A stretch of 64,000 nt of DNA from Helicobacter sp. MIT 99-5507 (GTDB lineage Bacteria > Campylobacterota > Campylobacteria > Campylobacterales > Helicobacteraceae): contig NZ_NXLO01000001.1 in assembly GCF_003364295.1 (NCBI RefSeq), forward strand, positions 372,001 to 436,000, written 5' to 3'. Positions 19,656-37,656 of the stretch are shown here, in pieces (positions within the stretch are counted from its first letter, which is position 1; each line of letters opens with the position of its first letter). Below the pieces are notes generated by a model that saw nothing but the letters and a program-made list of their open reading frames with translations, was not told the origin of the DNA and searched no databases. A program made the translations under genes and the position numbers.

Positions 19656-21796
19656 GATTATTTATATTTCCAACAAATCGAGCATTAAATAATTTTTATA
19701 TAAATTATAAAGATAGCATACTACCAGATGCAACGACTATTGGAAGTTTTTTTGAAGAAATAATAATAGTAAATGGCAAATCAAAAATACCAAAAAAGCT
19801 AAGAAAAATCATACTTTGGGATATTATTAGTAGATTTGAAGTAGAAAAAATCGGATTTGATAAGACATTTTTGCGATTTTTAGAAAACTCATCATTTTTA
19901 TTTAACTTTTTTGATGAGATAGAATCTGCAAATATAGATATAAAAAATATCGATATTAGCGATACTTATGGAGATTATGAGGATCACTTAAGAATCCTAA
20001 ATAATATTTATAATGCTTATAAAAAAAGATTAGATGAACTAAATTTATATGATAATCCTACAGAATATAGACTAAATACCGCATATATAAAGTATTATAA
20101 ACATATTGAAATATATATCGATGGATTGCTTAGTAATAAAGATTTTAATCTAATAAAAGAGATAGCAAAATATAGCAATATAGATTTAATTTTTGAGTGT
20201 AGCAAATATAATAAAACTATTTTTGAGAAGCTTTTTAATCAAAGATTTAAAATAGATATAAAATATACAATAAGTATAAATACCAACAAAATAAAAGATC
20301 AAATATCACTAGATACAAAAAAGCCAAATATATCAATTTATAGTTTTTCACTGCGATTAAATCAAGCATTGCTTGTGATTGCAAAAATAAATGAATGGCT
20401 AAAAAATGGTATTGAAAATATTGCCGTAATACTTCCTAGTGAGGATTTTAAAAAATATTTAAAATTATTTGATAAAGCCAAGAATCTAAACTATGCAATG
20501 GGATTAGAAGATTCTAATACCATATCAAAAATACGAAATTTAGAGCTAAAAATAGATAATTCAAAATCAAAACTCTTAAATATTATAGAAAATATAGGCA
20601 CAATAAAAGAAAATCTAAAAGATGAATTATTAGAGCTAACTAGATTTGAAAATCTATTTGAAAACCTTGATTATAATGATATATTAGAATTTATTATCAA
20701 TAATATTAAAAATATAGATGACACACATGGCGGAAAAGTAAAAGTCATTGGAATCTTAGAGACTAGAGGAATTGCATTTGATAAAATTATTATTGTTGAT
20801 TTTAATGATGAATTTTTACCAAAAATAAATGACAATGATATTTTTATAAACTCTAATATAAGAAAAAGGGTAAATCTCCCTACAATAAATGATAAAGAGA
20901 ATCTCCAAAGACACTATTATGCAAATCTCATTAATAATGCAAATGAAGTATGTATCGCTTTTGATGCTAATAAGATTCGCTCTAATTTACTTGATGATTT
21001 TGAACTATATGATGTAATTGATGGAGAGAGTTTGTGGAGTTTTTTTCCAAAAAACTTACAAAAAGAATACAAAGAAGATGAAATCATCGCAAATTTTGAG
21101 GATAAGAATCTATCTGCTACAAAAATAAAAACTTTTTTAGATTGCAAACGAAAATTTTATTTTTGCTATATTGCAAAACTAGCTCCAGATGAAATCGATA
21201 TAGAAGATACAAGTGCATTTATAGGCAATGTAGTGCATGATATTTTAAAAGATTTAGGAGATGATTTTAAAATAGAATCTTTTAAAAAAGCTCTAAAAAT
21301 TAGAGAAATGAATATACTAAATAGAATAGATATGGAATCTTTAATATTTAAAATCAAGCCATTTATAGAATCTAATTATGAAATTTTGCAAAAAAATAGG
21401 CAGATATTAAATAGAGAGTTTGAATTTAAATATGATATTTTTGGATTTGCATTTAGCGGAAGAATAGATAGAATAGATAAAGATAAAAATGAAATACATA
21501 TCATTGACTATAAAATAAAAAATAATTTTGATATAAAAAAAGAGAGATATTTACAACTTCTAATATACAAAAAAGCTATTAGTGAGATTTATAAAGATTA
21601 TTATATAAAAGCTGCTTATTATGATGTATTGAATGATAAATTGCATTATATGGATAGCAAAGATGAGCAAGCAGAAGAAGAGATATTGCAAGAGGTATTG
21701 ACGCTACTAAAAATAAAAAATATAAACTTTGAAAAAACAAATAATAGCAGTATATGTCATTATTGTGATTATAAACATTTATGTGATATGTATTAA
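19652..21796 (+). CDS. addB: AddB-like recombination nuclease (PD-(D/E)XK)
   Basis: A 714-residue protein. The N-terminus lacks a Walker A motif, as in AddB. The middle has a UvrD-like GKVKVIGILETRGIAFDKII. The C-terminus is a PD-(D/E)XK nuclease: GRIDRIDKDKNEIHIIDYK. Cysteines at FLDCKRKFYF and CHYCDYKHLC match the iron-sulfur cluster of AddB. With an AddA encoded elsewhere it would process double-strand breaks. It is smaller than Bacillus AddB but near Helicobacter homologues. It ends convergently, overlapping the ATP-grasp gene by 4 bases. Confidence 0.8.
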   Translation: MRLFIFPTNRALNNFYINYKDSILPDATTIGSFFEEIIIVNGKSKIPKKLRKIILWDIISRFEVEKIGFDKTFLRFLENSSFLFNFFDEIESANIDIKNIDISDTYGDYEDHLRILNNIYNAYKKRLDELNLYDNPTEYRLNTAYIKYYKHIEIYIDGLLSNKDFNLIKEIAKYSNIDLIFECSKYNKTIFEKLFNQRFKIDIKYTISINTNKIKDQISLDTKKPNISIYSFSLRLNQALLVIAKINEWLKNGIENIAVILPSEDFKKYLKLFDKAKNLNYAMGLEDSNTISKIRNLELKIDNSKSKLLNIIENIGTIKENLKDELLELTRFENLFENLDYNDILEFIINNIKNIDDTHGGKVKVIGILETRGIAFDKIIIVDFNDEFLPKINDNDIFINSNIRKRVNLPTINDKENLQRHYYANLINNANEVCIAFDANKIRSNLLDDFELYDVIDGESLWSFFPKNLQKEYKEDEIIANFEDKNLSATKIKTFLDCKRKFYFCYIAKLAPDEIDIEDTSAFIGNVVHDILKDLGDDFKIESFKKALKIREMNILNRIDMESLIFKIKPFIESNYEILQKNRQILNREFEFKYDIFGFAFSGRIDRIDKDKNEIHIIDYKIKNNFDIKKERYLQLLIYKKAISEIYKDYYIKAAYYDVLNDKLHYMDSKDEQAEEEILQEVLTLLKIKNINFEKTNNSSICHYCDYKHLCDMY

Positions 21797-23055
21797 AACT
21801 TTATACAATTAGGCAATAAATCAATTTTATTTTGTAAGTCATGCTCATTTTTAGCAGATAAAAAAACAATACCTGCTTTATATTTAGAGGTATCATCGAT
21901 TATATCACCACTTTTTGCCCATATTATAGAATCTAGCAAATGCTCACCAAGCAAAGTTAAATCTATATTTTTAATTTTGCCTCGTTTATTGCTCATTATA
22001 CATGCTCTTGCAAAAAATCTTTTTGCATTAATATGATTTATAATCCCACCATTATATTGATATTTTTTAGGTATAAGAATCCTCCTATCAAGCACTTTAG
22101 ATTCTATAGAAGAAAAAATATTTGTGATTTTATCTTGATTATGTGCTTGGATACAAAGACTTGGATAGTCAATCCCGCAAGCTTGCGATACAAACTCATT
22201 ATACAAATCACCGCCCATTCTCCTACAAGATTCTACGATAAATGGCATTATTTCATTATTTTTATTCTTGTATAAAATGATTTGTGTATGAAAGATTCCA
22301 TCTTTTAGATTTAGGATTCTAGCAATTTGTTCTATTTGATTTATCACCTCTTTGATGATTTTTGAAGTAAATTTTTTACTTGTTGTTGTGCTAGATACAG
22401 CAAAAGGATTGAAACAATGCTCTTCATTATCATAAAAATAAAATACTACTTTTTGATTTTGCAAAATAACACTAAAGCCATGATTGCTACCATCTATAAA
22501 CTCTTCAACGACAATACGACTGCTTTTAGAATTCATAAATGCAAGTTGTAATTTTTCATACAAATATTCATTTGCATATGCGATATTTACGCCCTTGCCA
22601 GTAGCAAAATCAACAGGTTTAATAATAATTTTAGAATCTTTAAAATTATTTGTAATCTTTAAAATTGCTTCATTGATATTATCAAATCCCATTGCCTTGG
22701 GACAAGGAAGTTTATTTTCTTGTAAAAATTTACGCCATAAATCCTTATAGTGAATAATTTTTGCAGTCTCTAAAGTATCAAAATTACCAATTTTAAGCTT
22801 ATTTGCAACATAGCTACAAGTAAGAGTAGATACATCATCACAAGAACTAATAATTGCATCAATTTTTGATTTTTTTGCTAGTTCTAGCATAGAATCCATA
22901 TCGCTATAATCACACAAAATCACTTCATCTGCAAAACTATGCCCTAAATCATTTGGATTATTTCCACTTGTAATAACATAATATCCTAACATCTTAGCAG
23001 ATTTTATAGTAGGGATATCAGCAAACTTGCCACCTGCTATTAGTAGCTTTTTCAA
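21793..23055 (-). CDS. ATP-grasp ligase
   Basis: A 420-residue ATP-grasp protein similar in layout to the second copy at 35627. The N-terminal fold is MKKLLIAGGKFADIPTIKSA. The ATP-binding region holds IIIKPVDFATGKGVNIA and VVEEFIDGSNHGFSV, and the metal-binding end is FIVESCRRMGGDLYNEF. Such enzymes couple a carboxylate to an amine through an acyl phosphate. In a glycan locus it may ligate an amino acid or acyl group to an aminosugar or carrier. It is the last gene of a minus-strand operon; no G-run is present. Confidence 0.8.
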   Translation of the reverse strand: MKKLLIAGGKFADIPTIKSAKMLGYYVITSGNNPNDLGHSFADEVILCDYSDMDSMLELAKKSKIDAIISSCDDVSTLTCSYVANKLKIGNFDTLETAKIIHYKDLWRKFLQENKLPCPKAMGFDNINEAILKITNNFKDSKIIIKPVDFATGKGVNIAYANEYLYEKLQLAFMNSKSSRIVVEEFIDGSNHGFSVILQNQKVVFYFYDNEEHCFNPFAVSSTTTSKKFTSKIIKEVINQIEQIARILNLKDGIFHTQIILYKNKNNEIMPFIVESCRRMGGDLYNEFVSQACGIDYPSLCIQAHNQDKITNIFSSIESKVLDRRILIPKKYQYNGGIINHINAKRFFARACIMSNKRGKIKNIDLTLLGEHLLDSIIWAKSGDIIDDTSKYKAGIVFLSAKNEHDLQNKIDLLPNCIKF

Positions 23056-23084
23056 AATCTCTCCAGCATATAAATTGATTATTA

Positions 23085-24092
23085 TTAAATTTTATTTAAT
23101 ATATATTCTCTATCCTTTTTATCGCTACCATCACAAAAACTTTCATCGTTACAAGTAAGACAAGGTTTTGGTTTTTTGGAATATAAAAATAAAATTTTTC
23201 TATAAATATAATTCTTTGTATAAATTTCTTCTATAGTTTGATTTTGTATGCTTCCTATGTGATTATTTTGTGTTGGAAAAATATTACAACATAAATACGC
23301 ATAACCCAAAAAATCAAAAAATATTTCTCTAAATACACGAACACACGGATTAATCCTATTATTAATACTCAAAGTTTTCACAACCCCCCCCCTATCACTT
23401 CCAATATCACTCCAATTTATAGTATTAACTTGTAATATAAAATTATCGATTTTACATTCAGTAGTGATGCTATGACTTGGATTAATTGAAATTTGTGGAA
23501 TAGAAATATCTAGTTTTTTATAAAATTGATTGATTTTTTCTAATGATATATCATCACAATATATTTCATTTGGCTTTGTATGCAATGTAATATTTATACG
23601 GTTAAGGCCAGCGTTTATTAAATTTTCTAGCATTTCAATATCCAAATAATCACCATTTGAATTAAAATGAATAAAAGCATTTGTAGCCCTTTTTAAATCA
23701 GAAATATGTCGTAATATATGCGGGTCAAGCAATGGCTCATTATAATAATTTAAGCAAATGCTTGAATTGAATTCTAAAGATTCTAGATTCTTAAGTAATT
23801 TATTAAAAATACTGCTATCAATGAGATGTGATTTATCATTGCGTTTATATGTAGATACAGGGCAGTATAAACATTTTCTATTACAAAAACCGCTAGTTTC
23901 AAGATTAAAAATAGAAACAAATTCTTTAAAAATTTGTTTTTGTAAATTTTTGTCATCGATACTTTTAAAGAGATAAGCAATATCCTTAAAATGATTTAAA
24001 TGATGATTTAAAAGCTTCTTCCAGTAAAATCTCCCAGGAGTTTTATTTAGCGGGATACAATCATCACTAAAATACAATTCATAATCTTTCAT
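23085..24092 (-). CDS. Radical SAM/SPASM protein, phase-variable, in frame
   Basis: A 335-residue radical SAM protein: cluster motif CNRKCLYC (~residue 73), YYNEPLLDPHIL as the GGEP-equivalent, and a SPASM-type Cys set CVRVF, CCNIFPT, CLTCNDESFC. The combination suggests modification of a small substrate in the glycan pathway; the target is unknown. A G9 run at 23384-23392 encodes DRGGVV near residue 235 and is in frame now. If the upstream radical SAM gene is in its full-length register, the two genes overlap by 14 bases, so translation is probably coupled. Confidence 0.82.
   Translation of the reverse strand: MKDYELYFSDDCIPLNKTPGRFYWKKLLNHHLNHFKDIAYLFKSIDDKNLQKQIFKEFVSIFNLETSGFCNRKCLYCPVSTYKRNDKSHLIDSSIFNKLLKNLESLEFNSSICLNYYNEPLLDPHILRHISDLKRATNAFIHFNSNGDYLDIEMLENLINAGLNRINITLHTKPNEIYCDDISLEKINQFYKKLDISIPQISINPSHSITTECKIDNFILQVNTINWSDIGSDRGGVVKTLSINNRINPCVRVFREIFFDFLGYAYLCCNIFPTQNNHIGSIQNQTIEEIYTKNYIYRKILFLYSKKPKPCLTCNDESFCDGSDKKDREYILNKI
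23384..23392 (-). repeat. C9 run (G9 coding) in a radical SAM gene, in frame
   Basis: Encodes GG in SDRGGVVKT two thirds into the gene. A slip would remove the SPASM cysteines. Confidence 0.9.
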
Positions 24093-25184
24093 CTCTGTCC
24101 TTTGTGGTAATATAGATATTTCTTAGTTTATTGATATGTTTTTGCAATGTTGTTGTAGAAGCTTGTTCTGGATATTGACAAAATCTACATACACAAATAC
24201 TATCTCTTTTACCCTGCAAATGCTTTAAGCGCAATTCATATAATCTTTTGAAATAAGGGGGGGGGTCGTGCTAGTTTTATCATCCCATATATCTTTAAGA
24301 TTATGAGTATAGATATTTCCGAGCTTGATTCTACCTTGATAATCCGCACAACACGGACTTACATCGCCATTACTATGTATTAAAAGTTGATAAAAAATAT
24401 TTGGACAAATATTGTAAGTAGATGATAATTTATGCCCATATTGATGTGTGATTATGGACTTTTCTTTTTTTTCTTTACTTAAATTAATTTTTAGTGAATC
24501 GCTTACATCAATTCCATACCAAATGTTTGCAACACCATCAAGAAAAATGCTATCACAATAATCACCAAATATATCAAGAAATCTTTGACAATCATCTTTG
24601 CTAAAATAATCTTTATTCATTTTAATATGAATATGGCAGTTATGCCCTGTTTTATCTGCATATTGAGTTTTGTATTGATAAAAGTATTTTATGTTTTCAA
24701 CAATTTTAGAAAAACTTATTTTTCTATGTGAAAAAGTTTTATAAGCAGAATCTTCTAGTCCATAAATACTAAAATGTATCTGGTCTAATCCTGCTTCAAT
24801 GATACTATTGCTTAAATTGTTTGACAATAAGCTTGCATTGCTGGTAGTCGCAATACGTTGTGCAACATTGGAATCTTTTAGCAAAGCCACCATTTGTGGA
24901 AAATATTTATTTAAAAGTGGCTCCCCAAACCCGTGAAGATGAATCATCTTTATTGGATTTTTAAACTCCTTTAGCTGTGTGATGATAATCTTCAATGTCT
25001 CCAAACTCATTTGCGATAAATTCATTGATTTTAGAGCATCTCTATTGCTTTGAAAACAAAACTCACATTTAAAATTACATATGCTACTTGGGTCAATATA
25101 CATTGTGATTGGCTGCGTGAGCGGTAATAATTCAATAAGTGGTTTTCTATCTTTGCTATATGGCTGTCTAAATTCTGCTTTCAT
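24079..25184 (-). CDS. Radical SAM/SPASM protein truncated by a poly-C run
   Basis: A radical SAM protein: CNFKCEFC (~residue 36), HGFGEPLLNKYF as SAM motif, then CPNIFYQLLIHSNGDVSPCC in the SPASM region. At the present C9 (coding strand) it ends at 24225 after 319 residues with a short wrong tail. With C10 it continues through a further CVCRFCQYPEQ Cys cluster to TGA 24079-24081, giving 368 residues and overlapping the next start by 14 bases. The missing Cys are probable auxiliary-cluster ligands, so the present form is likely inactive or altered. It is the only tract here that is C-rich on the coding strand. Confidence 0.85.
24257..24265 (-). repeat. G9 run on plus strand (C9 coding), out of register
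   Basis: C9 truncates the radical SAM protein; C10 adds 49 residues with three more cysteines. Confidence 0.9.
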
Positions 25185-25207
25185 AAAAATTCCTCATAAT
25201 AAAATAA

Positions 25208-26479
25208 TCAAATAAAAAACATAACACTTTCTGTTAATCCGCTTGAATAGTGCCTAAAATACATCTTATAATCGCATCTTATGCTAAAAACTAGCTCTGG
25301 GATCTTATAAAAATCATCAAAGCTATGATATACGCATATAGCAATCATTGGACGATATTTTGTGATAAATCTTTGCATTCCTTTTAAAGCCTCTATTTCT
25401 ACACTCTCAATATCAACCTTAATTAACATCAACCCCCCCCCATCTAGCACAGAATCCAATATCTCTATCTTCCCTTCTTGCAAAAGTGTATCGAGTTTGC
25501 AAAGTTGTATTTCAAAGTGATTGTTTAAATTATTCATCTTATTTATATCGCTTATTATATGTCCTGAAGTGCTATCGCTACAAAAAAATGTGAGATCATC
25601 TGTGTTTGCAAGTCCAACATTAAATCCCTTTGTATTTTTAAGTTTAGATTCTATATTCTGCTTTGCGATAATAAAATTTTGCCTATCTGGCTCGAAATAA
25701 TAAATATATTGATATAGATTGTTTCTTTTTACGAACTCTAAACTGGTCTCACCCCTATAAGCACCAATGTCAAAGAAATATCTTACATTATCAATATCAT
25801 AAAAATCTTCAAAATACTGCTCTTGTGGAATAAAATCAAAATCTTTCATAAATGAATAATCACTATTTAGTCTAAAGTTTATAATTTTTTCAAATTGACT
25901 TTTAGATTCTTCATCTTGCAATCTATCAAAAATCTCTTGATATTTATTTTTATGATTTAGATAGTCAAGTCTAAAGTCTTCCCAAGTGCTAACATTTTTG
26001 TGCAAGTGATTGCATTTAAAAGCATCAAAAAATTCTAACTCTAATAATTTTAGATTTGCAGATTCTCTTGAAGCTCTCTGTAATGCAAAATAATCAATAT
26101 ATTCTAAATCAATCAAAGTAGAATCATTAGATATAGATTGTATTTTTGCAATAGCACTTTTAGTCTGTGATGTAACTACTACTACTACTTTTATACAAAG
26201 TGGTGATTTATCGATTGATTTATTGGATAGACTGTGTGGTACTAAATCATTTACCTTTATTATGGGTATTTTATAATCTTTGACTTCATAATATTGATTG
26301 GTTGTAAAATCATCTATGATTCCATCACATTCAATTTTATTATCTAAAAGAACTTTTATGATATTTTTTGAATATTGGTTATGTCCAAAAATATAACGTT
26401 TAAAACTAGTATCTTTATGATTAAAAAAAGAGTTGAAAAATAACGTAGCTAAGTTATTATCTGTTTTATAGATTTTCAT
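25208..26479 (-). CDS. FkbM-family methyltransferase with N-terminal extension, phase-variable, in frame
   Basis: A 423-residue protein. The first ~200 residues have a Rossmann-like start (RYIFGHNQYSKNIIKVL), as in proteins that carry a nucleotide-binding module before FkbM. The C-terminal FkbM domain has YFFDIGAYRGETSLEF, IYYFEPDRQNF, MLIKVDIESVEIEALKG and AICVYHSFDDFY. A G9 run at 25433 encodes LDGGGLML just before the DIE motif and is in frame. The N-terminal part also holds five consecutive Val codons made of ACT repeats on the plus strand (26176-26190). It overlaps the oxidoreductase stop by four bases. Confidence 0.85.
   Translation of the reverse strand: MKIYKTDNNLATLFFNSFFNHKDTSFKRYIFGHNQYSKNIIKVLLDNKIECDGIIDDFTTNQYYEVKDYKIPIIKVNDLVPHSLSNKSIDKSPLCIKVVVVVTSQTKSAIAKIQSISNDSTLIDLEYIDYFALQRASRESANLKLLELEFFDAFKCNHLHKNVSTWEDFRLDYLNHKNKYQEIFDRLQDEESKSQFEKIINFRLNSDYSFMKDFDFIPQEQYFEDFYDIDNVRYFFDIGAYRGETSLEFVKRNNLYQYIYYFEPDRQNFIIAKQNIESKLKNTKGFNVGLANTDDLTFFCSDSTSGHIISDINKMNNLNNHFEIQLCKLDTLLQEGKIEILDSVLDGGGLMLIKVDIESVEIEALKGMQRFITKYRPMIAICVYHSFDDFYKIPELVFSIRCDYKMYFRHYSSGLTESVMFFI
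25433..25441 (-). repeat. C9 run (G9 coding) in the FkbM domain, in frame
   Basis: Encodes three glycines just upstream of the IKVDIE motif. A slip would delete the last ~75 residues of the catalytic domain. Confidence 0.9.
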
Positions 26480-27624
26480 TTATCTACCTCCATATTTCTA
26501 TAATCAATCTCAACGATATTATTTTTTTGTGCCGATAATGTAGCACTCTCAAAAAACAATAATCCTTCTTTTGATTCACCTAAACCAAAAATATAAGGCG
26601 AAGTAGAATCTATGCCATTTTTAAAATTTACAAGGCTTATGGCAATATCATAATAATAATTCGCAAAGGCTTCCAAAAAACCTTGTGGATGTCCTGCCTT
26701 AAATCGATTATAGCGGGCAAGTGAAGCAATTTTTAGATTTGGTGATGCCCTATCTTTTATGATTCTTTCTCCAGATTGGGTATTGAGTATTAATTCTTCG
26801 CTATTACTTTGCAACCACTCGCAACTAGATTTAGAACCAAAGATTCTAAGTTTTAGTCCATTTCTATGACCTAATGCACACTTTGAAAACCACATATTTA
26901 CCGATATATTATCTTCATAAGTGGCAAAAATATTTACATTATCAATGATATTTTTAAAATTCCCACAACCATTATATTTACTATATACATTAAGTGCTTT
27001 TTTATGGGTTAAAAAATAAATTAGATTATGGCAATGTATCCCTAAATCAAGTGAAATAATAGGTATTATTCCATCAGTTAATCGCCAACTCTGTGGAATC
27101 TTTACCTCGCCATTATCATTCTTGCAAATAAAACTTTCCTGTGGCATTTCAATATTTATTTGAAAAATATCTCCAAATTCGCCATTTTCTATCATATATC
27201 TCAATTCACGAATCATAGGATAACCAGTATAATTATAAATCACCGCCAAAAAAATATTTTTATCTTGCAATGCAGCGGCGATCTCTTTGGCTTCATTAAG
27301 ATTCCTGCAAAGCGTTTTCTCAACAACAACAGCATATCCATATCTTATACAATCAAGCAATATTTGTTTATGCGTAGGAGTTGGAGTAAGAATGCAAATA
27401 GCATCAATTTTACCCTGCTCTATTTTCAATAAATCCTTATAATCATCATAGATTCTAATATTGCTATCCCATAGGTATGCTGTCTTATGATTAATCTCTT
27501 TGTTTGTGCTAAAACAAGCACAACAGATTTCAAATTTATTATCCATACGAGTAGATACAAAATGCGTATAACCAATAGCAGAATCACAGCTGCCACCGAT
27601 GAATCCTAGCCTTAATATAGACAT
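26476..27624 (-). CDS. Gfo/Idh/MocA-family oxidoreductase
   Basis: A 382-residue NAD(P)-dependent sugar dehydrogenase-like protein. The N-terminal Rossmann motif is LGFIGGSCDSAIGY, a slight variant of GxGxxG, followed by DAICILTPTPTHKQ and the family lysine motif VVEKTLCRN (EKP-like, with T for P). The C-terminal substrate domain has DLGIHCHNLIYFL with the active-site His. Relatives oxidise or reduce nucleotide sugars or inositol. It heads the minus-strand operon and lies next to the inverted-repeat promoter region. No G-run is present. Confidence 0.85.
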   Translation of the reverse strand: MSILRLGFIGGSCDSAIGYTHFVSTRMDNKFEICCACFSTNKEINHKTAYLWDSNIRIYDDYKDLLKIEQGKIDAICILTPTPTHKQILLDCIRYGYAVVVEKTLCRNLNEAKEIAAALQDKNIFLAVIYNYTGYPMIRELRYMIENGEFGDIFQINIEMPQESFICKNDNGEVKIPQSWRLTDGIIPIISLDLGIHCHNLIYFLTHKKALNVYSKYNGCGNFKNIIDNVNIFATYEDNISVNMWFSKCALGHRNGLKLRIFGSKSSCEWLQSNSEELILNTQSGERIIKDRASPNLKIASLARYNRFKAGHPQGFLEAFANYYYDIAISLVNFKNGIDSTSPYIFGLGESKEGLLFFESATLSAQKNNIVEIDYRNMEVDK

Positions 27625-27643: not shown

Positions 27644-27839
27644 TGAAAATAGAAATTTTCAAACTATAAATATTAAGGTTAATAATGCTTGTTTTTTATA
27701 GATAAAATAATGCTTTGGTAGATAAATAAAAAAATATAAATATATTTACATTAATCATTTTTCAAGTATAATTTGAACTCATTATTTTAGAAAAATAACG
27801 ATTTATACGAGGTGGATAGTTTGAAAATTTCTATTTTCA
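27644..27839. repeat. Perfect 24-bp inverted repeat bracketing a divergent promoter region
   Basis: The arms at 27644-27667 and 27816-27839 are exact complements. Weaker matching continues outward for about 15 bases (CTTTAAAAATTTT against TTTTAAAAGTTGT). The 148-base interior holds a TATAAT at 27767-27772 pointing right. The repeat lies between the divergent Gfo/Idh and formyltransferase operons. This is the layout of an invertible promoter; it could also be a binding site pair or a duplication. No invertase gene is adjacent. Confidence 0.7.
27767..27772 (+). promoter_or_regulatory. -10 box inside the inverted-repeat segment
   Basis: TATAAT, about 118 bases before the formyltransferase ATG, facing the plus-strand glycan operon. 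No equally good -10 is seen for the minus-strand operon inside the segment. Confidence 0.5.
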
Positions 27840-27889: not shown

Positions 27890-28696
27890 ATGAAAATTTT
27901 TATATTAACTGATAATTATGATATTTTTTTACCAATTTATGATGTGATAAAAAATAATATTAAAAAAGATATAGATATAAAATATTTTTGTAATCCTACT
28001 TCAAAAAATAAATTTAAAGACTTTGATTTTATAAAGCAAAAAAATATCAAAGATGATTATAACGATTTGCTTAAATTTGATATTGGATTTTCAATCCATA
28101 GCAAGATGATATTTCCAAAAGAGCTAGTAGAAACAATCCCTTGTTTCAATCTCCACCCTGGTTTTAATCCTCATAATAGAGGTATATTCCCACATGTATT
28201 TTCTATCATAAATAAGCTAAAAGCAGGTGCTTCACTCCATATTATGGATTCTAAAATTGATAATGGCAAAATAATAGATAGAGAAGAAGTTGCTATAAAA
28301 TCATATGATGATAGCTTAAGTTTATATAAAAAGATTCTAAATTTAGAAGTAAAAATTTTTAGACGCAATCTAGATTCTATTATCAATAAAACATATAAAT
28401 TTATAGACATAGATTACAAGCACTCAAATTACAATTCTATGAATGATTTTAAAAATCTATGCAAAATAAACCTAGATAAGATTCTAACGATGCAAGAAGC
28501 GATAGATTATCTTAGAGCATTAAGCCACAAACCATACAAAAATGCCTATTTTATTGATAAAAATGGAGATAAAATATTTGTTTCTTTAAAATTACAAAAA
28601 GATAATATTATCAAAAATCCTACTATGGGGGGGGGTTGTCTCAAAAATAGAATCTTAGATAAAAGATTCAATCTCCTCCTTAAAAAGAGTGCTTAA
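27890..28696 (+). CDS. Sugar N-formyltransferase (WlaRD/VioF type)
   Basis: A 268-residue formyltransferase of the Fmt fold. The catalytic stretch CFNLHPGFNPHNRGIFPHVF (~residues 85-104) holds the Asn-x-His pair, and ASLHIMDSKIDNGKIIDREE holds the downstream Asp. The length and HPGFNP-NRG pattern fit dTDP-4-amino-4,6-dideoxyhexose N-formyltransferases, which use N10-formyl-tetrahydrofolate. The last residues follow a G9 run (TMGGGCLKN). At G9 the stop TAA directly abuts the next ATG. It is the first gene of the long plus-strand glycan operon. Confidence 0.82.
   Translation: MKIFILTDNYDIFLPIYDVIKNNIKKDIDIKYFCNPTSKNKFKDFDFIKQKNIKDDYNDLLKFDIGFSIHSKMIFPKELVETIPCFNLHPGFNPHNRGIFPHVFSIINKLKAGASLHIMDSKIDNGKIIDREEVAIKSYDDSLSLYKKILNLEVKIFRRNLDSIINKTYKFIDIDYKHSNYNSMNDFKNLCKINLDKILTMQEAIDYLRALSHKPYKNAYFIDKNGDKIFVSLKLQKDNIIKNPTMGGGCLKNRILDKRFNLLLKKSA
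28627..28635 (+). repeat. G9 run at the 3' end of the formyltransferase gene
   Basis: At G9 the stop is TAA immediately followed by ATG of the next gene. G8 gives a short tail VVSKIES; G10 stops within six codons. Confidence 0.9.
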
Positions 28697-29299
28697 ATGT
28701 CACACTTAAGCATTGATGAATTAAAACAATTACAAATTAAACTTCCTAAAAACCCACAAAATATTCTAGTATCCAAAAAAGCAAGCCTCTATAACACGCA
28801 TTTAATGGAATTTAGCAATAATATAAGAATAGATGATTTTGCAATATTAAGCGGTGCTATAAAATTAGAAAGTTTTATTCATATTGCTGCATTTGTGGCA
28901 CTTTATGGTGGTAAAAATGGAATTGAAATAAGCGAATTTTGCACTATATCACCAAAAGCTACTATATTTGCAAGCAATGATGATTTCAGCGGAAATGCTC
29001 TAATTAGTGGTGTTGTAGATTCTAGATTCTGCAATACAACATACAAAAAAGTCCTTTTAAAAAAACATACACAAATATGCTCAAATGCTACTATATTGCC
29101 TGATGTAGTATGCGGTATTGGTAGTGTGCTTGGGGCATTTTCTCTGCTAAAAAGTAATATCAATGAATTTGAAATCTTTGCTGGAATCCCTGCAAAAAAG
29201 ATTGGCTCTAGAGCAAAAAAGATTTTAGAATTAGAAATAGCATTTAAAAAAGATTTCGCCAAAAATACCATGTATGGGGGGGGGGATTCCAAAATATAA
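28697..29299 (+). CDS. Hexapeptide acyltransferase, paralogue 1
   Basis: A 200-residue left-handed beta-helix acyltransferase. Hexapeptide turns run from IRIDDFAILSGAI through ISEFCTISPKATIFASNDDFSGN to SVLGAFSLLKS and a terminal FAGIPAKKIGSRAKKILELE. It is paralogous to the genes at 31734, 35046 and 38493. These enzymes O- or N-acylate sugars. The typical active-site His is not obvious in this copy (FIHIAAFVALYGG). The gene ends on a G10 run giving GGGDSKI. At G11 or G8 the frame would instead run on through a hydrophobic stretch and past the ACP start. Confidence 0.82.
   Translation: MSHLSIDELKQLQIKLPKNPQNILVSKKASLYNTHLMEFSNNIRIDDFAILSGAIKLESFIHIAAFVALYGGKNGIEISEFCTISPKATIFASNDDFSGNALISGVVDSRFCNTTYKKVLLKKHTQICSNATILPDVVCGIGSVLGAFSLLKSNINEFEIFAGIPAKKIGSRAKKILELEIAFKKDFAKNTMYGGGDSKI
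29276..29285 (+). repeat. G10 run at the 3' end of acyltransferase 1
   Basis: G10 and G9 stop within ten codons. G11 and G8 add about 45 codons rich in Phe, Ile, Leu and Tyr. Confidence 0.9.
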
Positions 29300-29390
29300 A
29301 ATCCCTTAATCCCTACTTCTATCTTTATATTTTTAGACTTTTTATCTCTTTCTTCATATTTTTTATCTCAAATAAAAGGAAAAAAGCAAA

Positions 29391-29684
29391 ATGGAAAATA
29401 TTGAAAAAATTATATTTAATGCACTAAAAAATCTAGCAGATGAATTAGAAAACAATGAGCTTAAAAACCCAACAAGAGAAACTAAAATATATGGTATTGA
29501 TGGCAATTTAGATTCTCTTGCATTAGTTAGCTTTATAGCAGATTTAGAAGAATCTTTGAGTGAAGCATGGGGCGGAGTGGCAGTGGTTTTGGCAGATGAA
29601 AAAGCAATGAGTTTGAGAAATTCACCATTTAGAGATGTAGAAACACTAACAAAATACATAATCTCTCTTAAGCAGGACAAATGA
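29391..29684 (+). CDS. Acyl carrier protein
   Basis: A 97-residue acidic helical protein with the phosphopantetheine attachment motif NLDSLALVSFI (Ser near residue 42) and a following helix DLEESLSEAWG, as in carrier proteins. The ribosome site is AAAGGAAAAAAGC. Its stop overlaps the SDR start by ATGA. Together with the SDR, the AMP-forming ligase and the ketosynthase-like remnant at 37705, it suggests a dedicated acyl group made on this carrier for sugar acylation. It is distinct from housekeeping ACP by length and context. Confidence 0.8.
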   Translation: MENIEKIIFNALKNLADELENNELKNPTRETKIYGIDGNLDSLALVSFIADLEESLSEAWGGVAVVLADEKAMSLRNSPFRDVETLTKYIISLKQDK

Positions 29685-30412
29685 AAAATAAAATAATAGT
29701 AATAACTGGCACTAGAAAAGGCATAGGCAAGGAATTAAGCTTATATTATCTAAAAAAAGGACACATAGTATGTGGCTGTTCTCGTGGGGTTTCTAGCATA
29801 GAGCACGAAAATTATCGCCATTTTGAGCTAGATGTAAGTAATGAATCTCAAGTTGTTTCAATGATAAGAACGATAAAAAAAGAATTTGGCAGAATTGATA
29901 TTTTACTTAATAATGCTGGAATCGCCTCTATGAATCACATTTTAACAACACCATATAAAAGTGTGCAAAATATTTTTAATACAAATGTTTTTGGCTCATT
30001 TTTATTCCTAAGAGAAGTAGCAAAACTCATGAGTCTAACTTATAAAAAAAATAAAATGCAAGGTTTGCCTTTTCGCATTGTGAATTTTGCCACAATCGCA
30101 ACTCCGCTTAGATTGGAAGGTGAGGCAATTTATGCAGCTTCAAAAGCAGCAATAGTAAATTTTACCCAAATTGCAGCAAAAGAATTAAGCGAGCTTGGAA
30201 TTACGATAAATGCAGTAGGACCAACCCCTATTCCAACAGATTTAATCAAAAATGTCCCAAAAGAAAAAATGCAAAATTTACTAAACGAGCAAGCCATAAA
30301 AAGATTTGGAGAATTTAGCGATGTCTTAAATGTAATTGATTTTTTTATCAATGAAAATAGTGATTTTATCACCGGACAAGTGATTTATCTAGGGGGCGTA
30401 GTAAATGGCTAA
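29681..30412 (+). CDS. SDR oxidoreductase, 3-oxoacyl-ACP reductase-like
   Basis: A 243-residue short-chain dehydrogenase. The cofactor motif is TGTRKGIGKEL (residues ~9-19), the structural motif NNAG is followed by a Ser region FATIATP, and the catalytic pair is YAASKAA. The C-terminus DFITGQVIYLGGVVNG is FabG-like. Its position between an ACP and an acyl-activating enzyme suggests reduction of a carrier-bound oxoacyl group. The 3' end overlaps the ligase gene by 8 bases. Confidence 0.85.
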   Translation: MKNKIIVITGTRKGIGKELSLYYLKKGHIVCGCSRGVSSIEHENYRHFELDVSNESQVVSMIRTIKKEFGRIDILLNNAGIASMNHILTTPYKSVQNIFNTNVFGSFLFLREVAKLMSLTYKKNKMQGLPFRIVNFATIATPLRLEGEAIYAASKAAIVNFTQIAAKELSELGITINAVGPTPIPTDLIKNVPKEKMQNLLNEQAIKRFGEFSDVLNVIDFFINENSDFITGQVIYLGGVVNG

Positions 30413-31733
30413 TTTCTTAGAGAAAATCTCAAAACATAGTGGAAATTTTATTATATATGATGATAATCCATATAGCTATAGAGATTTATTTAAAAAAATT
30501 GATGAAAAGTCTTTAATTTTATCAAATATAGAGCAAGGAAGCACTATAGCTTTAATTGGTGATTATGATATAGATTCTATTAGTTTTTTACTTTGCTGCT
30601 ACAAACATAAAATGATAGTTGCGCCACTTTTAAAATCAAATCCAAATGAAGATTCTATAAAAGCAGCACAGATTGAATATATCTATCAAAATAATAAATT
30701 AGAAAAAACTAATAATAAAAGTGAAAATAATTTATTATCCAGATTAAAAAATAAAAGTGGGCTTATTTTGTTTTCAAGCGGTAGCACAGGAATCCCAAAA
30801 GCAATAGTGCATGATTTAGATTCTATGCTTGAAAGCTATATAGATAAAAGGGTAAAGCCTATTAATTTGCTTTTATTTTTAGGATTTGATCATATTGGTG
30901 GATTAAATACGCTTTTTAATAGTTTGAGCAGTGGTAGCTGTGGTATTGCACTAAAAGATAGAAAAAATATAAAAGATATAGCAAAAGCCTTGCAAGATTA
31001 TAAAATTTCTTTACTTCCTGCAAGCCCTAGCCTCTTAAATCTTATGCTAACTTGCAATATTCAAAATAATTATGATTTAAGCAATTTACGCATTATTACA
31101 TATGGAAGTGAGATGATGCCACCTTCCTTGCTATATAAATTAAAGCTAGCTTTTCCAAAGGTGCGTTTTCACCAAACATTTGGGACAAGCGAGACAGGAA
31201 TAATCCAAACAAAAAGCCTAAAAGATTCTATAAAACTAGAAAATATAGATTACAAAATCAAAAACAATGAACTTTATTTAAAAAGTAAAACTCAAAGCTT
31301 AGGTTATTTAAATAGTGATAATAAAGTATTTGATGATGAAGGATACTTTGCTACAGGTGATTTAGTAGAAGTAATGGAATCTAGTGGAGAAGAATATATA
31401 AAAATTGTTGCTAGAACAAAAGAAGTAATAAATGTTGGTGGTGAAAAAGTATTACCTAGTGAAGTTGAGAGTGTGATTTTAGAATTGCCTTATATTTTAG
31501 ATTGCTTAGTTTATGGAGAAACAAATTCTATTATGGGACAAAGTGTAAGTGCAAAAGTAGTATTAGATTCTAAAATAGAATCTAATGCAGAACTAAAAAA
31601 GAAAATTAGAATCTACTGCAAAAATAAGCTTGCAAACTACAAAATCCCTACAAAAATAGAACAAGTAGAATCTCTAGAGATAAGTGAGAGATTTAAGAAA
31701 GTTAGAATATATGCAAATTCTACTAAAGGCTAA
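30405..31733 (+). CDS. AMP-forming acyl-CoA/acyl-ACP synthetase-like enzyme
   Basis: A 442-residue ANL-superfamily adenylating enzyme, a little shorter than usual. It shows the P-loop-like SSGSTGIPKAIVHD (~residue 125), FHQTFGTSETG (A5), GYFATGDLVEV (A7) and RTKEVINVGGEKVLPSEVE (A8). The A10 Lys region is IPTKIEQVESLEISERFKK. It probably activates an organic acid and loads it onto the nearby ACP. Its stop is followed at once by the ATG of acyltransferase 2, so the four genes act as one unit. Confidence 0.85.
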   Translation: MANFLEKISKHSGNFIIYDDNPYSYRDLFKKIDEKSLILSNIEQGSTIALIGDYDIDSISFLLCCYKHKMIVAPLLKSNPNEDSIKAAQIEYIYQNNKLEKTNNKSENNLLSRLKNKSGLILFSSGSTGIPKAIVHDLDSMLESYIDKRVKPINLLLFLGFDHIGGLNTLFNSLSSGSCGIALKDRKNIKDIAKALQDYKISLLPASPSLLNLMLTCNIQNNYDLSNLRIITYGSEMMPPSLLYKLKLAFPKVRFHQTFGTSETGIIQTKSLKDSIKLENIDYKIKNNELYLKSKTQSLGYLNSDNKVFDDEGYFATGDLVEVMESSGEEYIKIVARTKEVINVGGEKVLPSEVESVILELPYILDCLVYGETNSIMGQSVSAKVVLDSKIESNAELKKKIRIYCKNKLANYKIPTKIEQVESLEISERFKKVRIYANSTKG

Positions 31734-32318
31734 ATGATGCAGGGATTTTATTCAAATTTAGAGCTAAAAAAATTAGGATTTAAAAATCTTGGTAACAATA
31801 TATTTTTAAGTAAAAAAGTAAGCATATATGGCATAGAGCAAATAAGCATTGGCAGCAATGTGCGTATTGATGATTTTACGATATTAAGTGGAAACATACA
31901 AATTGGCTCATTTGTGCATATTGGAGCTTGTAGTCAAATCGTAGGGGCTGAAAGCGGCGTAATTATAAAAGATTTTGTTAGCATTAGTAGCGGTGTAAAA
32001 ATCTATGCCTCAAGTGATGATTATAGTGGAAATAGCCTTACAAATCCGCTTATTCCCACACAATACAAAAATATCACACAAGAGCAAATCACACTTTGTA
32101 AGCATAGTATTATTGGAAGCAATAGCGTGCTTTTACCAAATAGTAAAGGTTTGGCTTTTGGTGTAAGTGTAGGCGCTCTAAGCCTTGTTATGCGTCCTAC
32201 AAAACCTTTTGGAATCTACTTTGGAATCCCAGCAAAAGAGATTGCAAAAAGAAGTAAAGATATTTTAAAACTAGAAGAAGATTTTAAAAAGAACTTTATG
32301 GGGGGGGGGGAATTCTAA
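31734..32318 (+). CDS. Hexapeptide acyltransferase, paralogue 2
   Basis: A 194-residue left-handed beta-helix acyltransferase: VRIDDFTILSGNIQIGSFVH, GAESGVIIKDFVSISS, YASSDDYSGNSL and RPTKPFGIYFGIPAKEIAKR. It shares these blocks with paralogues 1, 3 and 4. The FVHIGA His is retained. At the present G11 run the gene ends FMGGGEF. At G10 it runs 13 codons further and its TGA overlaps the ATG of the small gene at 32355, so G10 looks like the designed register. It probably transfers an acetyl or other acyl group made by the preceding ACP/SDR/ligase genes. Confidence 0.83.
   Translation: MMQGFYSNLELKKLGFKNLGNNIFLSKKVSIYGIEQISIGSNVRIDDFTILSGNIQIGSFVHIGACSQIVGAESGVIIKDFVSISSGVKIYASSDDYSGNSLTNPLIPTQYKNITQEQITLCKHSIIGSNSVLLPNSKGLAFGVSVGALSLVMRPTKPFGIYFGIPAKEIAKRSKDILKLEEDFKKNFMGGGEF
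32300..32310 (+). repeat. G11 run at the 3' end of acyltransferase 2
   Basis: The longest run in the window. G11 ends GGGEF; G10 gives an ATGA overlap with the next small gene. Confidence 0.9.
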
Positions 32319-32354
32319 AAAATCCTCTATAAATAATCCATCAAAGGCATGTGC

Positions 32355-32498
32355 ATGATAAAAATTATCACTGCCACTAAACTGCATTATAAATATCAAA
32401 GCGATATAAAAACACTAATAAAACTAGCCTACACCTCATCATTTAAGCCTAATATAATCACAAAATCACTTATAGATGAAATAAAGGATATAAAATGA
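32355..32498 (+). CDS. Small 47-residue gene
   Basis: MIKIITATKLHYKYQSDIKT begins a 47-residue basic peptide with no recognised domain. Support for a real gene is positional. Its ATG would overlap the upstream acyltransferase TGA (ATGA) at tract length G10, and its own TGA overlaps the ATG of the aminotransferase-like gene. It lacks a strong ribosome site, as expected for coupled translation. It could also be a remnant of a larger gene. Confidence 0.45.
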   Translation: MIKIITATKLHYKYQSDIKTLIKLAYTSSFKPNIITKSLIDEIKDIK

Positions 32499-33490
32499 AT
32501 AAATATCCTGCTATTGGTGGCTATTTTGCATTGGAATTATGTAAAAATTCATATCCACACAAAAATGCACTACATTTAAACCTAGCAAGAAGTGCCATAA
32601 AGCTTATTATAAAAACTCATAATATAAAAGAAATTTTTATTCCATATTTTACTTGCAAAAGTGTGCTTGATAGCATAAAAGAGCAAAATTGCAATATTAG
32701 ATTCTATCATATCAATGAAGATTTAAGCCCAAGATTGGATTGTAAAAAGCATTGTTGGATAATTTATAATGATTATTTTGGCATTAATAAAAACAATGTA
32801 AAACTACTAAATAAAAAATACAAAAATCTAATCATTGACAATGCACAAAGTTTTTTTGCAAAAAAATCAAAAATATGTTTTTATAGTCCAAGAAAGTTTT
32901 TAGGCGTAAGCGATGGCGGAATCTTATATGATAATAAAAGCAAAATAGACAATATAAAACAAGATTCTAGTCTATATAGAGCAAAATATTTATTTACTAG
33001 AATCGAAAATGGTGCTGAAGCTGGATATAGTGATTTTTTAAAAGCTGAAAAAAGCCATACAAAACACATCAAAACGATGTCAAATCTCACATATACATTA
33101 CTTCAATCTATTGATTATAAACAAATCAAACAAAAAAGAATCAAAAACTACAACTATCTAAATAATGCACTAAAAAACTCCATAAAACCAAATCTAGAAT
33201 CTGATGAGATTCCTATGATTTATCCTTATTTTGGAGATAAAAGCCTAAGAGAAAAACTAATTAAAAATAAAATTTTTGTGGCTACATATTGGAATGACAT
33301 GGAAATGTGGTGTGAAAAAAAATCTTTTGAATTGCATCTAAGAGATCATCTCTTACCTCTACCAATAGACCAAAGATATGGAGAATTTGAAATGAATAGA
33401 ATTATTAAAATCACTAAATGGGGGGGGGTATTAGATGATAGATACAATAGCCCAAGCCATATTACAAAATATGAGGTGCATTGTGCCTAA
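32495..33490 (+). CDS. DegT/DnrJ-like PLP aminotransferase homologue, phase-variable tail
   Basis: A 331-residue PLP-fold protein: a phosphate-binding-like NLARSAIKLIIKTH, EIFIPYFTCKSVLDSI, NDYFGI, IIDNAQSFF and the lysine-bearing FYSPRKFLGVSDGG (~residue 133). It resembles sugar aminotransferases of the DegT family but is shorter than the usual 370 residues. It could supply the amino group that the neighbouring formyltransferases modify. At the present G9 it ends with a 23-residue tail overlapping the next gene. At G8 it would stop at TAG (33432-33434) immediately before ATG 33435, giving 312 residues. Confidence 0.72.
   Translation: MNKYPAIGGYFALELCKNSYPHKNALHLNLARSAIKLIIKTHNIKEIFIPYFTCKSVLDSIKEQNCNIRFYHINEDLSPRLDCKKHCWIIYNDYFGINKNNVKLLNKKYKNLIIDNAQSFFAKKSKICFYSPRKFLGVSDGGILYDNKSKIDNIKQDSSLYRAKYLFTRIENGAEAGYSDFLKAEKSHTKHIKTMSNLTYTLLQSIDYKQIKQKRIKNYNYLNNALKNSIKPNLESDEIPMIYPYFGDKSLREKLIKNKIFVATYWNDMEMWCEKKSFELHLRDHLLPLPIDQRYGEFEMNRIIKITKWGGVLDDRYNSPSHITKYEVHCA
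33420..33428 (+). repeat. G9 run at the aminotransferase/formyltransferase junction
   Basis: G8 gives WGGY, TAG, then ATG with no gap. The run also lies 6 bases before that ATG, where a ribosome site is expected. Confidence 0.88.
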
Positions 33491-34985
33491 GATTTGTTTT
33501 TATGTATCAGGGGCTGCCCAAAGATTGATTGCATTGTTTAAAAAAGATTCTAAGATATTACAATCCACTGCATTAATAGTATTTGATAATCCACCATTAT
33601 CGCTTTTAAATCAATATGCAAAAAATAAAAATATAGAATTATTAGAAATCGATTATAAAAAACTCGGCTTAAACCTAAAAGAGCGAAATATTTATCTAAG
33701 CAATACACTTTTAAATGCGATGCAAAGATTGGATATTACACATTGTTTTTGCTTTGGTAGATTGCTTTTAGTAGGTGAGTTATTAAAAATCTATCAAAAT
33801 AAAATAATCAACTTCCACCCTTCTATTTTGCCACTTTTTAGTGGAAATAAAGCTATTGATAAAGCATTGGAAAATAAGGCATTTTTACTAGGAAATACTG
33901 CGCATTTTGTAGATGATGGTATAGATAGCGGTCCAATTATTATGCAAAGTATCATAAAATCAAGTGAATTTAGAGATTATGAAGATGTATTATCTTTGCA
34001 GATTCCAATGATTGAATATATTTATAATAATATAGATTCAATCTCTATAAAAAATAATATTGTATCAATAAAAGATTCTACAAGCTATCCTGCATTTTTC
34101 CCTAGCATTTTGCACAATAATACAAAAGAGAAAAAAGCTATTTTTATTGGCAATAGATTAGATGTATTAGATGAGATTTTGCAATCAAATATAAGATTAG
34201 AAAAAATTTTAATATTGAAAGATTCTTATGCACACAAAAATATAAAACTAGAAAATTTTATTTTATTTGATACAAAAGAAATACTCTTAAATGAGATAAA
34301 AAATTGCAATTTTGATATATTAATCTCAAATGGCTGCCCTTTTATACTACCTGTATCATCACTAAAAAAACCTAATCAAAAATTTATAAATATCCACCCT
34401 TCACTACTTCCTAGCCTTCGAGGCAAACACCCTATAAATGGAGCAATCTTGTTTAATAAAAAAGCTGGAGCTAGCGTGCATATGATGAATGATGAAGTAG
34501 ATAAAGGAGAGATTCTATCTCAAGTTGAAATACCGCTAAAAAATCTAAGCTTAGCACTTTTATACAAACTATCATTTAAAGCTGAAGCAATGGCTTTTAA
34601 AATAGCATTACAAAATGATTTTAAAGCCACAAATAAAATAAAAATATACAAAGAGAGCTACTACTCTCGCCCAAAAGATATAAAAATCCACATAAATAGC
34701 AACAATAAAAAACTAATACGCACGATAAATGCCTTTGGTATAGAAAATATCGCTGCGACAATAATCACAAAAATAGGAGAATTTAAAGTGTTAGAAATAA
34801 AAAAAATAAAAAATAAATTTTTAAAAAAAATAAGCCCACATTATAAAGAATATGAAATATTAGAAACATATGAAGACAAGATTTTATTTTTAAAAAATGA
34901 TGAATTTTTAGAACTTAGATTTTTAAACAGAAAAGATATATCAAAACTAAAAAGCAAAATGATTCTATGGGGGGGGGGATATTAG
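33435..34985 (+). CDS. Tandem-domain formyltransferase (PurN-like plus Fmt-like)
   Basis: A 516-residue protein with two formyltransferase domains. Domain 1 (to ~residue 210) is PurN-like: NFHPSILPLFSGNKAID, then NTAHFVDDGIDSGPIIMQS. Domain 2 (from ~residue 230) is Fmt/sugar-formyltransferase-like: FINIHPSLLPSLRGKHPING and ASVHMMNDEVDKGEILSQ. Both keep the Asn-x-His and downstream Asp. A protein with two active formyltransferase sites is unusual; it may formylate two positions or two sugars. At G10 it ends LWGGGY with TAG directly before an ATG. The ATG at 33435 has the G-run as its only possible ribosome site; a second ATG lies at 33471. Confidence 0.82.
   Translation: MIDTIAQAILQNMRCIVPKICFYVSGAAQRLIALFKKDSKILQSTALIVFDNPPLSLLNQYAKNKNIELLEIDYKKLGLNLKERNIYLSNTLLNAMQRLDITHCFCFGRLLLVGELLKIYQNKIINFHPSILPLFSGNKAIDKALENKAFLLGNTAHFVDDGIDSGPIIMQSIIKSSEFRDYEDVLSLQIPMIEYIYNNIDSISIKNNIVSIKDSTSYPAFFPSILHNNTKEKKAIFIGNRLDVLDEILQSNIRLEKILILKDSYAHKNIKLENFILFDTKEILLNEIKNCNFDILISNGCPFILPVSSLKKPNQKFINIHPSLLPSLRGKHPINGAILFNKKAGASVHMMNDEVDKGEILSQVEIPLKNLSLALLYKLSFKAEAMAFKIALQNDFKATNKIKIYKESYYSRPKDIKIHINSNNKKLIRTINAFGIENIAATIITKIGEFKVLEIKKIKNKFLKKISPHYKEYEILETYEDKILFLKNDEFLELRFLNRKDISKLKSKMILWGGGY
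34969..34978 (+). repeat. G10 run at the 3' end of the tandem formyltransferase
   Basis: G10 gives WGGGY, TAG, then ATG. The junction resembles that at 33420 (G-run, then TATTAGATGA). Confidence 0.9.
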
Positions 34986-35045
34986 ATGAGATTTTGCAAA
35001 TTTTTAGTTTTTTACCAAATAAAAAAGCTTATTTTGGAGGCAATT

Positions 35046-35630
35046 ATGCCTTATCTTAAAGAAGAACAAATAGCAAAACTTGGATTAAAAAGCTATGGGA
35101 AAAATCTCCTTATAAGCGACAAAGTTACATTTTATCGCCCAAATAGAATCTCCCTTGGAAACAATATAAAAATAGATGATTTTGTAGTGCTTGGCAATCA
35201 TATCACAATAGGAGATTATGTGCATATTAGCCTTGGTTGTAGCTTGCTTGCAAGTGATGATGGTGAAATCATAATGGAAGATTTTAGCGGATTTGCACCA
35301 AGAGTTCATGCATTTAGTGGAAGTGATGATTATAGTGGTGAATTTATGACAGGTGCTTGCATCCCTAAAGAATATAGAGGAACTTACTCTAAACCACTTT
35401 ATATTGGACAAAATTCCATTGTAGGCTCTATGAGCTGTATCATGCCTGGAGCACACATAAGAGAAGGTGTCGCAGTTGGAAGTAGTAGTCTTGTTATGCG
35501 ACCTACAAGACCTTTTGGAATCTACTTTGGAAATCCAGCAAAAAGAATAGCTGAACGAAACAAAAATTTACTCAAACTAAAAAATGAATTTTTAAGCAAA
35601 TTTAAAAACAATAATGGGACTTTTTCATGA
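35046..35630 (+). CDS. Hexapeptide acyltransferase, paralogue 3
   Basis: A 194-residue beta-helix acyltransferase, start chosen at ATG 35046 because GGAGG lies seven bases upstream. An in-frame ATG at 34986 would add 20 hydrophobic residues and lies right after the TAG of the upstream gene. Motifs: IKIDDFVVLGNHITIGDYVH, DFSGFAPRVHAFSGSDDYSG and RPTRPFGIYFGNPAKRIAER. The second-coil HAFSGSDDY matches the other paralogues. It lacks a G-run. The stop overlaps the following ATP-grasp start by ATGA. Confidence 0.83.
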   Translation: MPYLKEEQIAKLGLKSYGKNLLISDKVTFYRPNRISLGNNIKIDDFVVLGNHITIGDYVHISLGCSLLASDDGEIIMEDFSGFAPRVHAFSGSDDYSGEFMTGACIPKEYRGTYSKPLYIGQNSIVGSMSCIMPGAHIREGVAVGSSSLVMRPTRPFGIYFGNPAKRIAERNKNLLKLKNEFLSKFKNNNGTFS

Positions 35631-36916: not shown

Positions 36917-37656
36917 AATACACTCCTAAAAATCAAAGTCTAGCTATAATGCAACCATATTTTTTGCCATATATTGGATATTTTCAGCTAATTAATGCAG
37001 TGGATAATTTTATTATATATGATAATATTCAATATTCAAAAAAATATTTTGTAAGCAAAAATCAATTTTTGCAAAATGGCAAGCCAAAAGCATTTTCTAT
37101 CGCCTTGCAAAAAGATTCTGATTATTTAAATATAAATGAGCGATATTTAGCAAAAAATTTTGATAAAGAAAAATTACTAGATTCTATTCATTTTGCATAT
37201 ATCAAAGCACCATATCATAATGATTTAATGCCACTATTAGAATCTATTTTTGCATATCCAAAAGAAAATTTATTTGATTTTATTTATCACTCAATCCTTA
37301 AAATATGTATTTATTTAAAAATTGATACAAATATTTTTATCTCATCAACTCTACCTATAAATCACGAATTGAGAGCACAAGATAAAGTTATAGCACTATG
37401 TAAAGCTATGCAATCAAACATATATATAAATTCTATTGGTGGAATCTCACTTTATGATAAAAAAGAATTTGAAAAGCAAAATATCAAACTTAGATTTATG
37501 CAAATAGATTCTAATCTTTTTTATAATCAATTTGGAAATACTTTTATTCAAAATCTTAGCATTATCGATGTAATCGCATTTAATAACAAATCTCAAATAA
37601 AAAATCTCCTAAAACAATATTGCTTTAAAAATGGGGGGGGGGATTCTATTTTTTAA
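36913..37656 (+). CDS. WbqC-family protein, phase-variable tail
   Basis: A 247-residue WbqC-like protein: LAIMQPYFLPYIGYFQLINA at the N-terminus, FIIYDNIQYSKKYFVSKNQF, and INSIGGISLYDKKEF near the end, all family blocks. The family occurs in O-antigen and capsule loci, and its members are thought to act on sugar or acyl transfer steps. Start ATG 36913 has AAGGAG nine bases before it. At the present G10 it ends NGGGDSIF. At G9 it would run 20 codons more and its TGA would overlap the next ATG (37705). Confidence 0.82.
   Translation: MKYTPKNQSLAIMQPYFLPYIGYFQLINAVDNFIIYDNIQYSKKYFVSKNQFLQNGKPKAFSIALQKDSDYLNINERYLAKNFDKEKLLDSIHFAYIKAPYHNDLMPLLESIFAYPKENLFDFIYHSILKICIYLKIDTNIFISSTLPINHELRAQDKVIALCKAMQSNIYINSIGGISLYDKKEFEKQNIKLRFMQIDSNLFYNQFGNTFIQNLSIIDVIAFNNKSQIKNLLKQYCFKNGGGDSIF
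37633..37642 (+). repeat. G10 run at the 3' end of the WbqC gene
   Basis: G9 gives an ATGA overlap with the following gene and a hydrophobic tail. G10 stops after five codons. Confidence 0.9.

Follow-up and report, generated by a model that had tools for sequence, protein, structure and literature searches.

A likely XerH-operated invertible promoter at difH-like sites between two divergent glycan operons of a Helicobacter strain

Two glycan operons of Helicobacter sp. MIT 99-5507 run in opposite directions from a short intergenic region, and the sole strong promoter-like site between them faces only one of the two. Can this promoter be turned round, and if so, by which enzyme? The window, that is, the whole stretch of DNA analysed, is 64,000 nucleotides long; the features of the locus are collected in Table 1. 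The ATG of the Gfo/Idh gene (27624, - strand) and that of the sugar formyltransferase gene (27890, + strand) both lie outside an inverted repeat which brackets the promoter, in agreement with an earlier note on this DNA. The right glycan genes at 28697..37656 are a row of genes that may or may not form a single transcript.

Homopolymer tracts are the main known source of phase variation in Helicobacter. In and around the glycan genes there are twenty runs of G or C, each 8-11 nt long (window 873-47659; examples are 28627-28635, 29276-29285, 32300-32310 and 34969-34978); such runs are typical of slipped-strand phase variation. The earlier note placed inversion as a layer over G-runs; the tract layer is real, with many 8-11 nt tracts in the flanking genes. 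Further along, an ORF at window 37705-38496 combines a short-chain dehydrogenase match with a partial ketoacyl-ACP synthase III domain and is possibly a fusion or remnant.

The inverted repeat is perfect over 24 bp, TGAAAATAGAAATTTTCAAACTAT, with a gap of 148 nt between the arms. Weaker similarity extends outward to give 35-nt arms (27633-27667 and 27816-27850) with 94% identity. When the window was randomised 200 times under a first-order Markov model, perfect inverted repeats with gaps of 20-1000 reached at most 19 bp; the runner-up in the real window is 16 bp. The bracketed segment carries TTTACA at 27745 and a TATAAT -10 box at 27767-27772 on the + strand, matching 11 of the 12 consensus positions; the top left-facing match in the segment reaches only 8/12. 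The repeat, its outward extension and the single good -10 box facing right are all as the earlier note described them. From geometry, inversion would place the -10 box at 27711-27716 on the - strand, facing Gfo/Idh. No RNA family scores above threshold in or near the element. A reading of the arms as a terminator was rejected; a terminator-like site is absent.

Table 1. Features of the intergenic element and the operons on either side (window coordinates)
Feature	Position	Strand	Basis
Left operon, remainder: FkbM methyltransferase domain protein, two radical SAM/SPASM proteins, ATP-grasp protein	21793..26479	-	
Left operon, gene 1: Gfo/Idh/MocA oxidoreductase; ATG ~19 nt from left site	26476..27624	-	
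Left arm of perfect 24-bp inverted repeat	27644..27667	+	repeat search
Left difH-like core TGAAAA-tagaaa-TTTTCA; inner continuation AACTAT, outer TTTAAAAATTT	27644..27661	+	difH consensus, PMC3325230 Table 2
Predicted invertible segment	27656..27827	.	XerH-difH architecture and G074/G083 flip breakpoints
Promoter-like site TTTACA-16-TATAAT, facing right operon as assembled	27745..27772	+	promoter match 11/12
Right arm of perfect 24-bp inverted repeat	27816..27839	-	repeat search
Right difH-like core, inverted, centre tagaaa again	27822..27839	-	difH consensus, PMC3325230
Right operon, gene 1: sugar N-formyltransferase	27890..28696	+	
Right glycan gene run: SDR, AMP-ligase, hexapeptide transferases, formyltransferase, ATP-grasp, WbqC-like, others	28697..37656	+	

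The arms resemble difH, the site at which XerH resolves chromosome dimers (PMC3325230, PMC5241119); the earlier reader missed this resemblance. Each arm consists of TGAAAA-tagaaa-TTTTCA followed by AACT, and the difH consensus of 24 epsilonproteobacteria is TATTGAAAACTATAATTTTCAAACT (PMC3325230). The native dif of the same genome, TAGTATTGAAAACTGCAATTTTCAAACTT at C1:186846, has the centre CTGCAA in place of the TAGAAA of the arms. The strict core TGAAAANNNNANTTTTCA occurs at three sites only in the whole genome: once in each arm and once at the native dif. When sites are scored with a weight matrix that derives from the 24 published difH sequences and ignores the centre, the arms reach 18.3 and 18.2 and the native site 39.5; no other site in the window reaches 8 bits. 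The outer halves of the arms are poorer difH matches than the native site (score 18 versus 39.5), and the outer half of the right site, AGTTGTGAAAA, resembles the H. pylori left arm AGTTATGAAAA.

According to the structural study of XerH, the enzyme contacts bases 7-11 and 20-24, and T4 is important. Both arms have the same contact bases as the native site, TGAAA (7-11) and TTTCA (20-24), around a 6-bp centre, and T4 (position 14 in the numbering of Table 2 of PMC3325230) is T in both outer halves. At the edge of the centre, where difH has a conserved C (C13), both arms have T. In H. pylori, a C to G change at C13 reduced recombination from 9% to 1% in vivo (PMC3325230), while changes at this position did not reduce XerH cleavage in vitro. 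Since C13 is replaced by T and the in vivo and in vitro effects disagree, the arms are called difH-like here rather than dif.

The genome contains a single tyrosine recombinase, a 358-aa protein at C4:250472, unlinked to the element and on another contig. It is XerH by sequence, with conserved catalytic residues and a match to H. pylori XerH (5jjv) at E 2.6e-103. No serine recombinase was found in the genome. The earlier note listed the lack of a recombinase suited to the repeat among the findings that would refute inversion; the lone tyrosine recombinase of this genome, XerH, has a site that the arms match. Recombination by H. pylori XerH requires FtsK, a dependence that may count against the proposed inversion across ~150 bp.

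The segment is likely an inverton, worked by XerH at difH-like sites, which switches its promoter between the two operons. The two arms would be XerH sites in a head-to-head arrangement, the right half TTTTCAAACT of each pointing inward. XerH would bind both sites, pair them and exchange strands in the common centre TAGAAA, within the hexamers at 27650-27655 and 27828-27833. The exchange would invert ~172 bp and turn the promoter right, to the formyltransferase operon, or left, to the Gfo/Idh operon. Transcription is predicted to run rightward from ~27779 in the assembled state and leftward from ~27704 into Gfo/Idh in the inverted state. The private centre (TAGAAA versus CTGCAA) should bar exchange with the native dif. 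Site architecture, recombinase content and flips seen in comparisons of relatives are the grounds on which XerH catalysis, flipping in the strain itself and alternating transcription of the operons are proposed.

A protein search identified the same Gfo/Idh gene in named species. In H. aurati and in H. muridarum an inverted pair immediately precedes this gene, with the centres TGCGTA and TGGGTA, respectively. The G003 genome also has an inverted pair at the locus, with the centre TAACAA and one degenerate outer half-site. In all three genomes the two centres of the pair are identical. H. aurati and H. muridarum each contain the fully palindromic core TGAAAANNNNNNTTTTCA three times and no more, once at the native dif and once in each arm. 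G001, G004 and Helicobacter sp. 11S02596-1 also contain the Gfo/Idh gene, but no inverted pair was detected beside it. The interior of the present element is too diverged from those of G003, H. aurati and H. muridarum for orientation to be compared at this locus. Between H. aurati and H. muridarum the reversed alignment is better (z 5.8 versus 1.2), which is weaker support for flipping. Like the present genome (G000), G003, H. aurati and H. muridarum each contain one tyrosine recombinase and no serine recombinase. The case for XerH as the agent comes mainly from site identity and from these four genomes.

A pattern scan finds additional difH-like sites in many genomes of the family. Two listings give every site for 55 genomes, with sites no more than 2.5 kb apart taken as one locus; the listing pattern missed the H. 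aurati and H. muridarum pairs. All 16 loci of close sites in the 55 genomes contain an inverted pair with the same whole central hexamer; one of them, in G089, has a third site that is direct relative to the second. Such identity within pairs is not expected by chance, since five positions of the centre are unconstrained in the pattern used for the listing. The centre varies among loci (CTATTC, TAAGAC, TGAGAC, TTGTAG, TGGTAA and others). The cassette interiors are mostly short, non-coding and situated between divergent operons. Their neighbours are mostly glycan genes, including those for UDP-GlcNAc 2-epimerase, NeuB, LicD, glf and a CMP-sugar synthetase-like protein; a flagellin gene and type I specificity (hsdS) DNA are also found.

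The clearest flip, at a locus other than Gfo/Idh, is seen between G074:C15 and G083:C31. The flanks are collinear (84% and 90%), and the bracketed 487 bp lie on the opposite strand at 93%; a genome search recovers the same flip. The inner flanks swap at the cores. The flipped segment holds a 12/12 consensus promoter, TTGACA-17-TATAAT, which faces the UDP-galactopyranose mutase gene (glf) in G074 and a GT2 and glycerophosphotransferase gene in G083. Both genomes hold a second tyrosine recombinase, and G074 a serine recombinase as well, so this flip is not assignable to XerH alone. Two other pairs give weaker or more complex pictures: the G088 and G091 interiors align better reversed (z 7.7 versus 0.5, again weaker support), and G089 and G091 share an opposite-strand piece within a more complex array. 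Together with the H. aurati and H. muridarum interiors, these make three further comparisons that agree with flipping. The earlier reading, an invertible promoter between divergent glycan operons, thus gains support from the XerH match and from cassettes in opposite orientation in related species.

The departures from difH noted above could mean that the element is a relic, once invertible, with sites now too weak or wrongly spaced and the promoter locked toward the right operon. The poorer outer half-sites and the replaced C13 fit such decay, and the degenerate half-site in G003 indicates that decay happens. It is nonetheless unlikely in the present strain: the 24-bp arms are still perfectly identical around a centre unlike that of the native dif, when drift would have separated them, and every XerH contact base is kept. 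Each arm is also near-palindromic, and the element lies between divergent operons, as would suit two palindromic operators with 9-bp half sites at which a repressor or activator loops the divergent promoter region with no recombination. Operators of this kind would not need an identical, non-palindromic centre, yet 16 close pairs have one in the inverted sense, and the centre varies between loci and species. The motif is moreover that of difH, elsewhere present only at dif, and the segment is seen flipped between relatives; looping at operators is very improbable.

Two other explanations keep recombination and change its agent or its purpose. Inversion might be due to RecA-dependent exchange or to an unrecognised recombinase instead of XerH. 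Several cassette-bearing relatives own further tyrosine or serine recombinases, and sites of the G088/G089/G091 type lack T4, which would suit another agent. This is quite unlikely here, given that the present genome, G003, H. aurati and H. muridarum have a lone tyrosine recombinase and no serine recombinase, that 24 bp is short for RecA and that the arms match difH. Integrative elements which use Xer sites are known, and the arms could be remnants of an IMEX-like or TnPZ-like mobile element that uses XerH to integrate; on C17 of G069, two difH-like copies in direct orientation, 31 kb apart, look like one. Here, in contrast, the sites are inverted and enclose 148 nt that hold a promoter but no cargo gene; cassettes built in this way are found again between divergent glycan operons, with interiors of 100-480 bp, and a second tyrosine recombinase is absent from the genome. 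A mobile-element origin is therefore extremely improbable, and an inverton worked by XerH is the preferred reading.

Bacteroides capsule promoters, E. coli fimS and the C. difficile switches use other invertases and unrelated repeats and are mostly on/off devices for one operon. The proposed XerH cassette shares with them a short one-promoter segment, inverted repeats and adjoining surface genes (PMC11868660); it differs in its place between two divergent operons. In the XerH/difH system of Helicobacter and Campylobacter (PMC3325230, PMC5241119), two half-sites likewise surround a 6-bp centre with conserved contact bases and T4. Its known use, in contrast, is dimer resolution at one dif per chromosome, tested with direct repeats, whereas the cassette has two extra inverted sites, another centre and an enclosed promoter.

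U. parvum XerC and M. agalactiae Xer1 are Xer-type recombinases that also invert DNA at short inverted repeats and so switch surface antigens (PMC3599477, PMC2268961). In Ureaplasma parvum it was CodV that bound the putative dif, and XerC the inverted repeats, so the inversion sites were not dif copies (PMC3599477); in the present genome the arms resemble dif, and there is no recombinase other than the dimer-resolution enzyme. The Mycoplasma and Ureaplasma loci have a dedicated, linked or specific recombinase gene, unlike the unlinked XerH gene on C4. The pdif modules of Acinetobacter plasmids (PMC9947245) are extra pairs of Xer sites recombined by the host Xer system; they are plasmid-borne and move genes, whereas this is a chromosomal promoter cassette with a private centre. 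IMEX and TnPZ-like elements have direct repeats around cargo or a XerT gene, and the cassette has neither.

No literature linking XerH/difH to phase variation or to invertible promoters in Helicobacter was found; subscription papers were largely outside the search, and priority is not certain. A survey of site-specific inversion reported none in 6 Epsilonproteobacteria samples (PMC5903667). The element is best read as an invertible promoter that a housekeeping dimer-resolution recombinase probably works at dif-like sites. XerH would then probably double as an on/off switch for surface sugars. If so, Helicobacter has a second layer of phase variation, in which a conserved housekeeping recombinase is co-opted in trans and only two short sites with a private centre are needed. 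Surface variation would be coupled to the XerH/FtsK division machinery, and switches could be predicted from sequence alone in many genomes. The wider generalisation is, on balance, plausible: XerH may be a global phase-variation invertase across Helicobacteraceae, with inverted difH-like pairs that have private hexamers flipping promoters between divergent glycan operons (and at flagellin and hsdS genes too), insulated from dif by centre mismatch and possibly tied through FtsK to division.

A number of individual loci deserve mention. In G074 (L097 3239-3739; G074:C12:7738-8238) an inverted difH-like pair with 465 bp between the cores lies upstream of a flagellin gene, a possible case of flagellin phase variation. 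In G060 (L108 3252-5201; G060:C1:198251-200200) the two sites of an inverted pair are 1.9 kb apart and one is within hsdS, where shuffling is possible. L105 3690-5537 (G089:C40) and L106 3481-4502 (G091:C1) have two or three difH-like sites with the centre TGGTAA near a TupA-like gene; this array is rearranged between the two genomes, its sites lack T4, and both genomes have a second tyrosine recombinase. The direct sites in G069 (C17:3858 and 34889; L239 and L240), 31 kb apart with the common centre GAGCAA, may delimit an XerH-integrated element.

The spacing of the sites was also considered. Nine of 11 short cassettes are near half-integral spacing at 10.5 bp per turn (corrected p 0.02). With one cassette per homologous group, p is 0.10, which is not significant, and the element in the window and the G003 pair are out of phase; this helical phasing was therefore not used.

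Some contigs end within ~100 bp of a difH-like site (G083:C15:36, G085:C29:63, G089:C13:73, G089:C17:72, G089:C47:62 and G079:C93:2), as would be expected of assemblies that break where a segment is repeated or of mixed orientation. A conserved cassette of ~880 bp with difH-like ends and the centre TAAGAC is present in G053:C6 (L111 2970-3882) and G057:C5 (L112 3004-3915); it has longer inverted repeats of ~240 bp and the same orientation in both genomes. Finally, ~200 bp of one cassette interior, including its consensus promoter (L099 3094-3296), recur as a repeated promoter region at many other places in related genomes, there with no listed difH-like pair.
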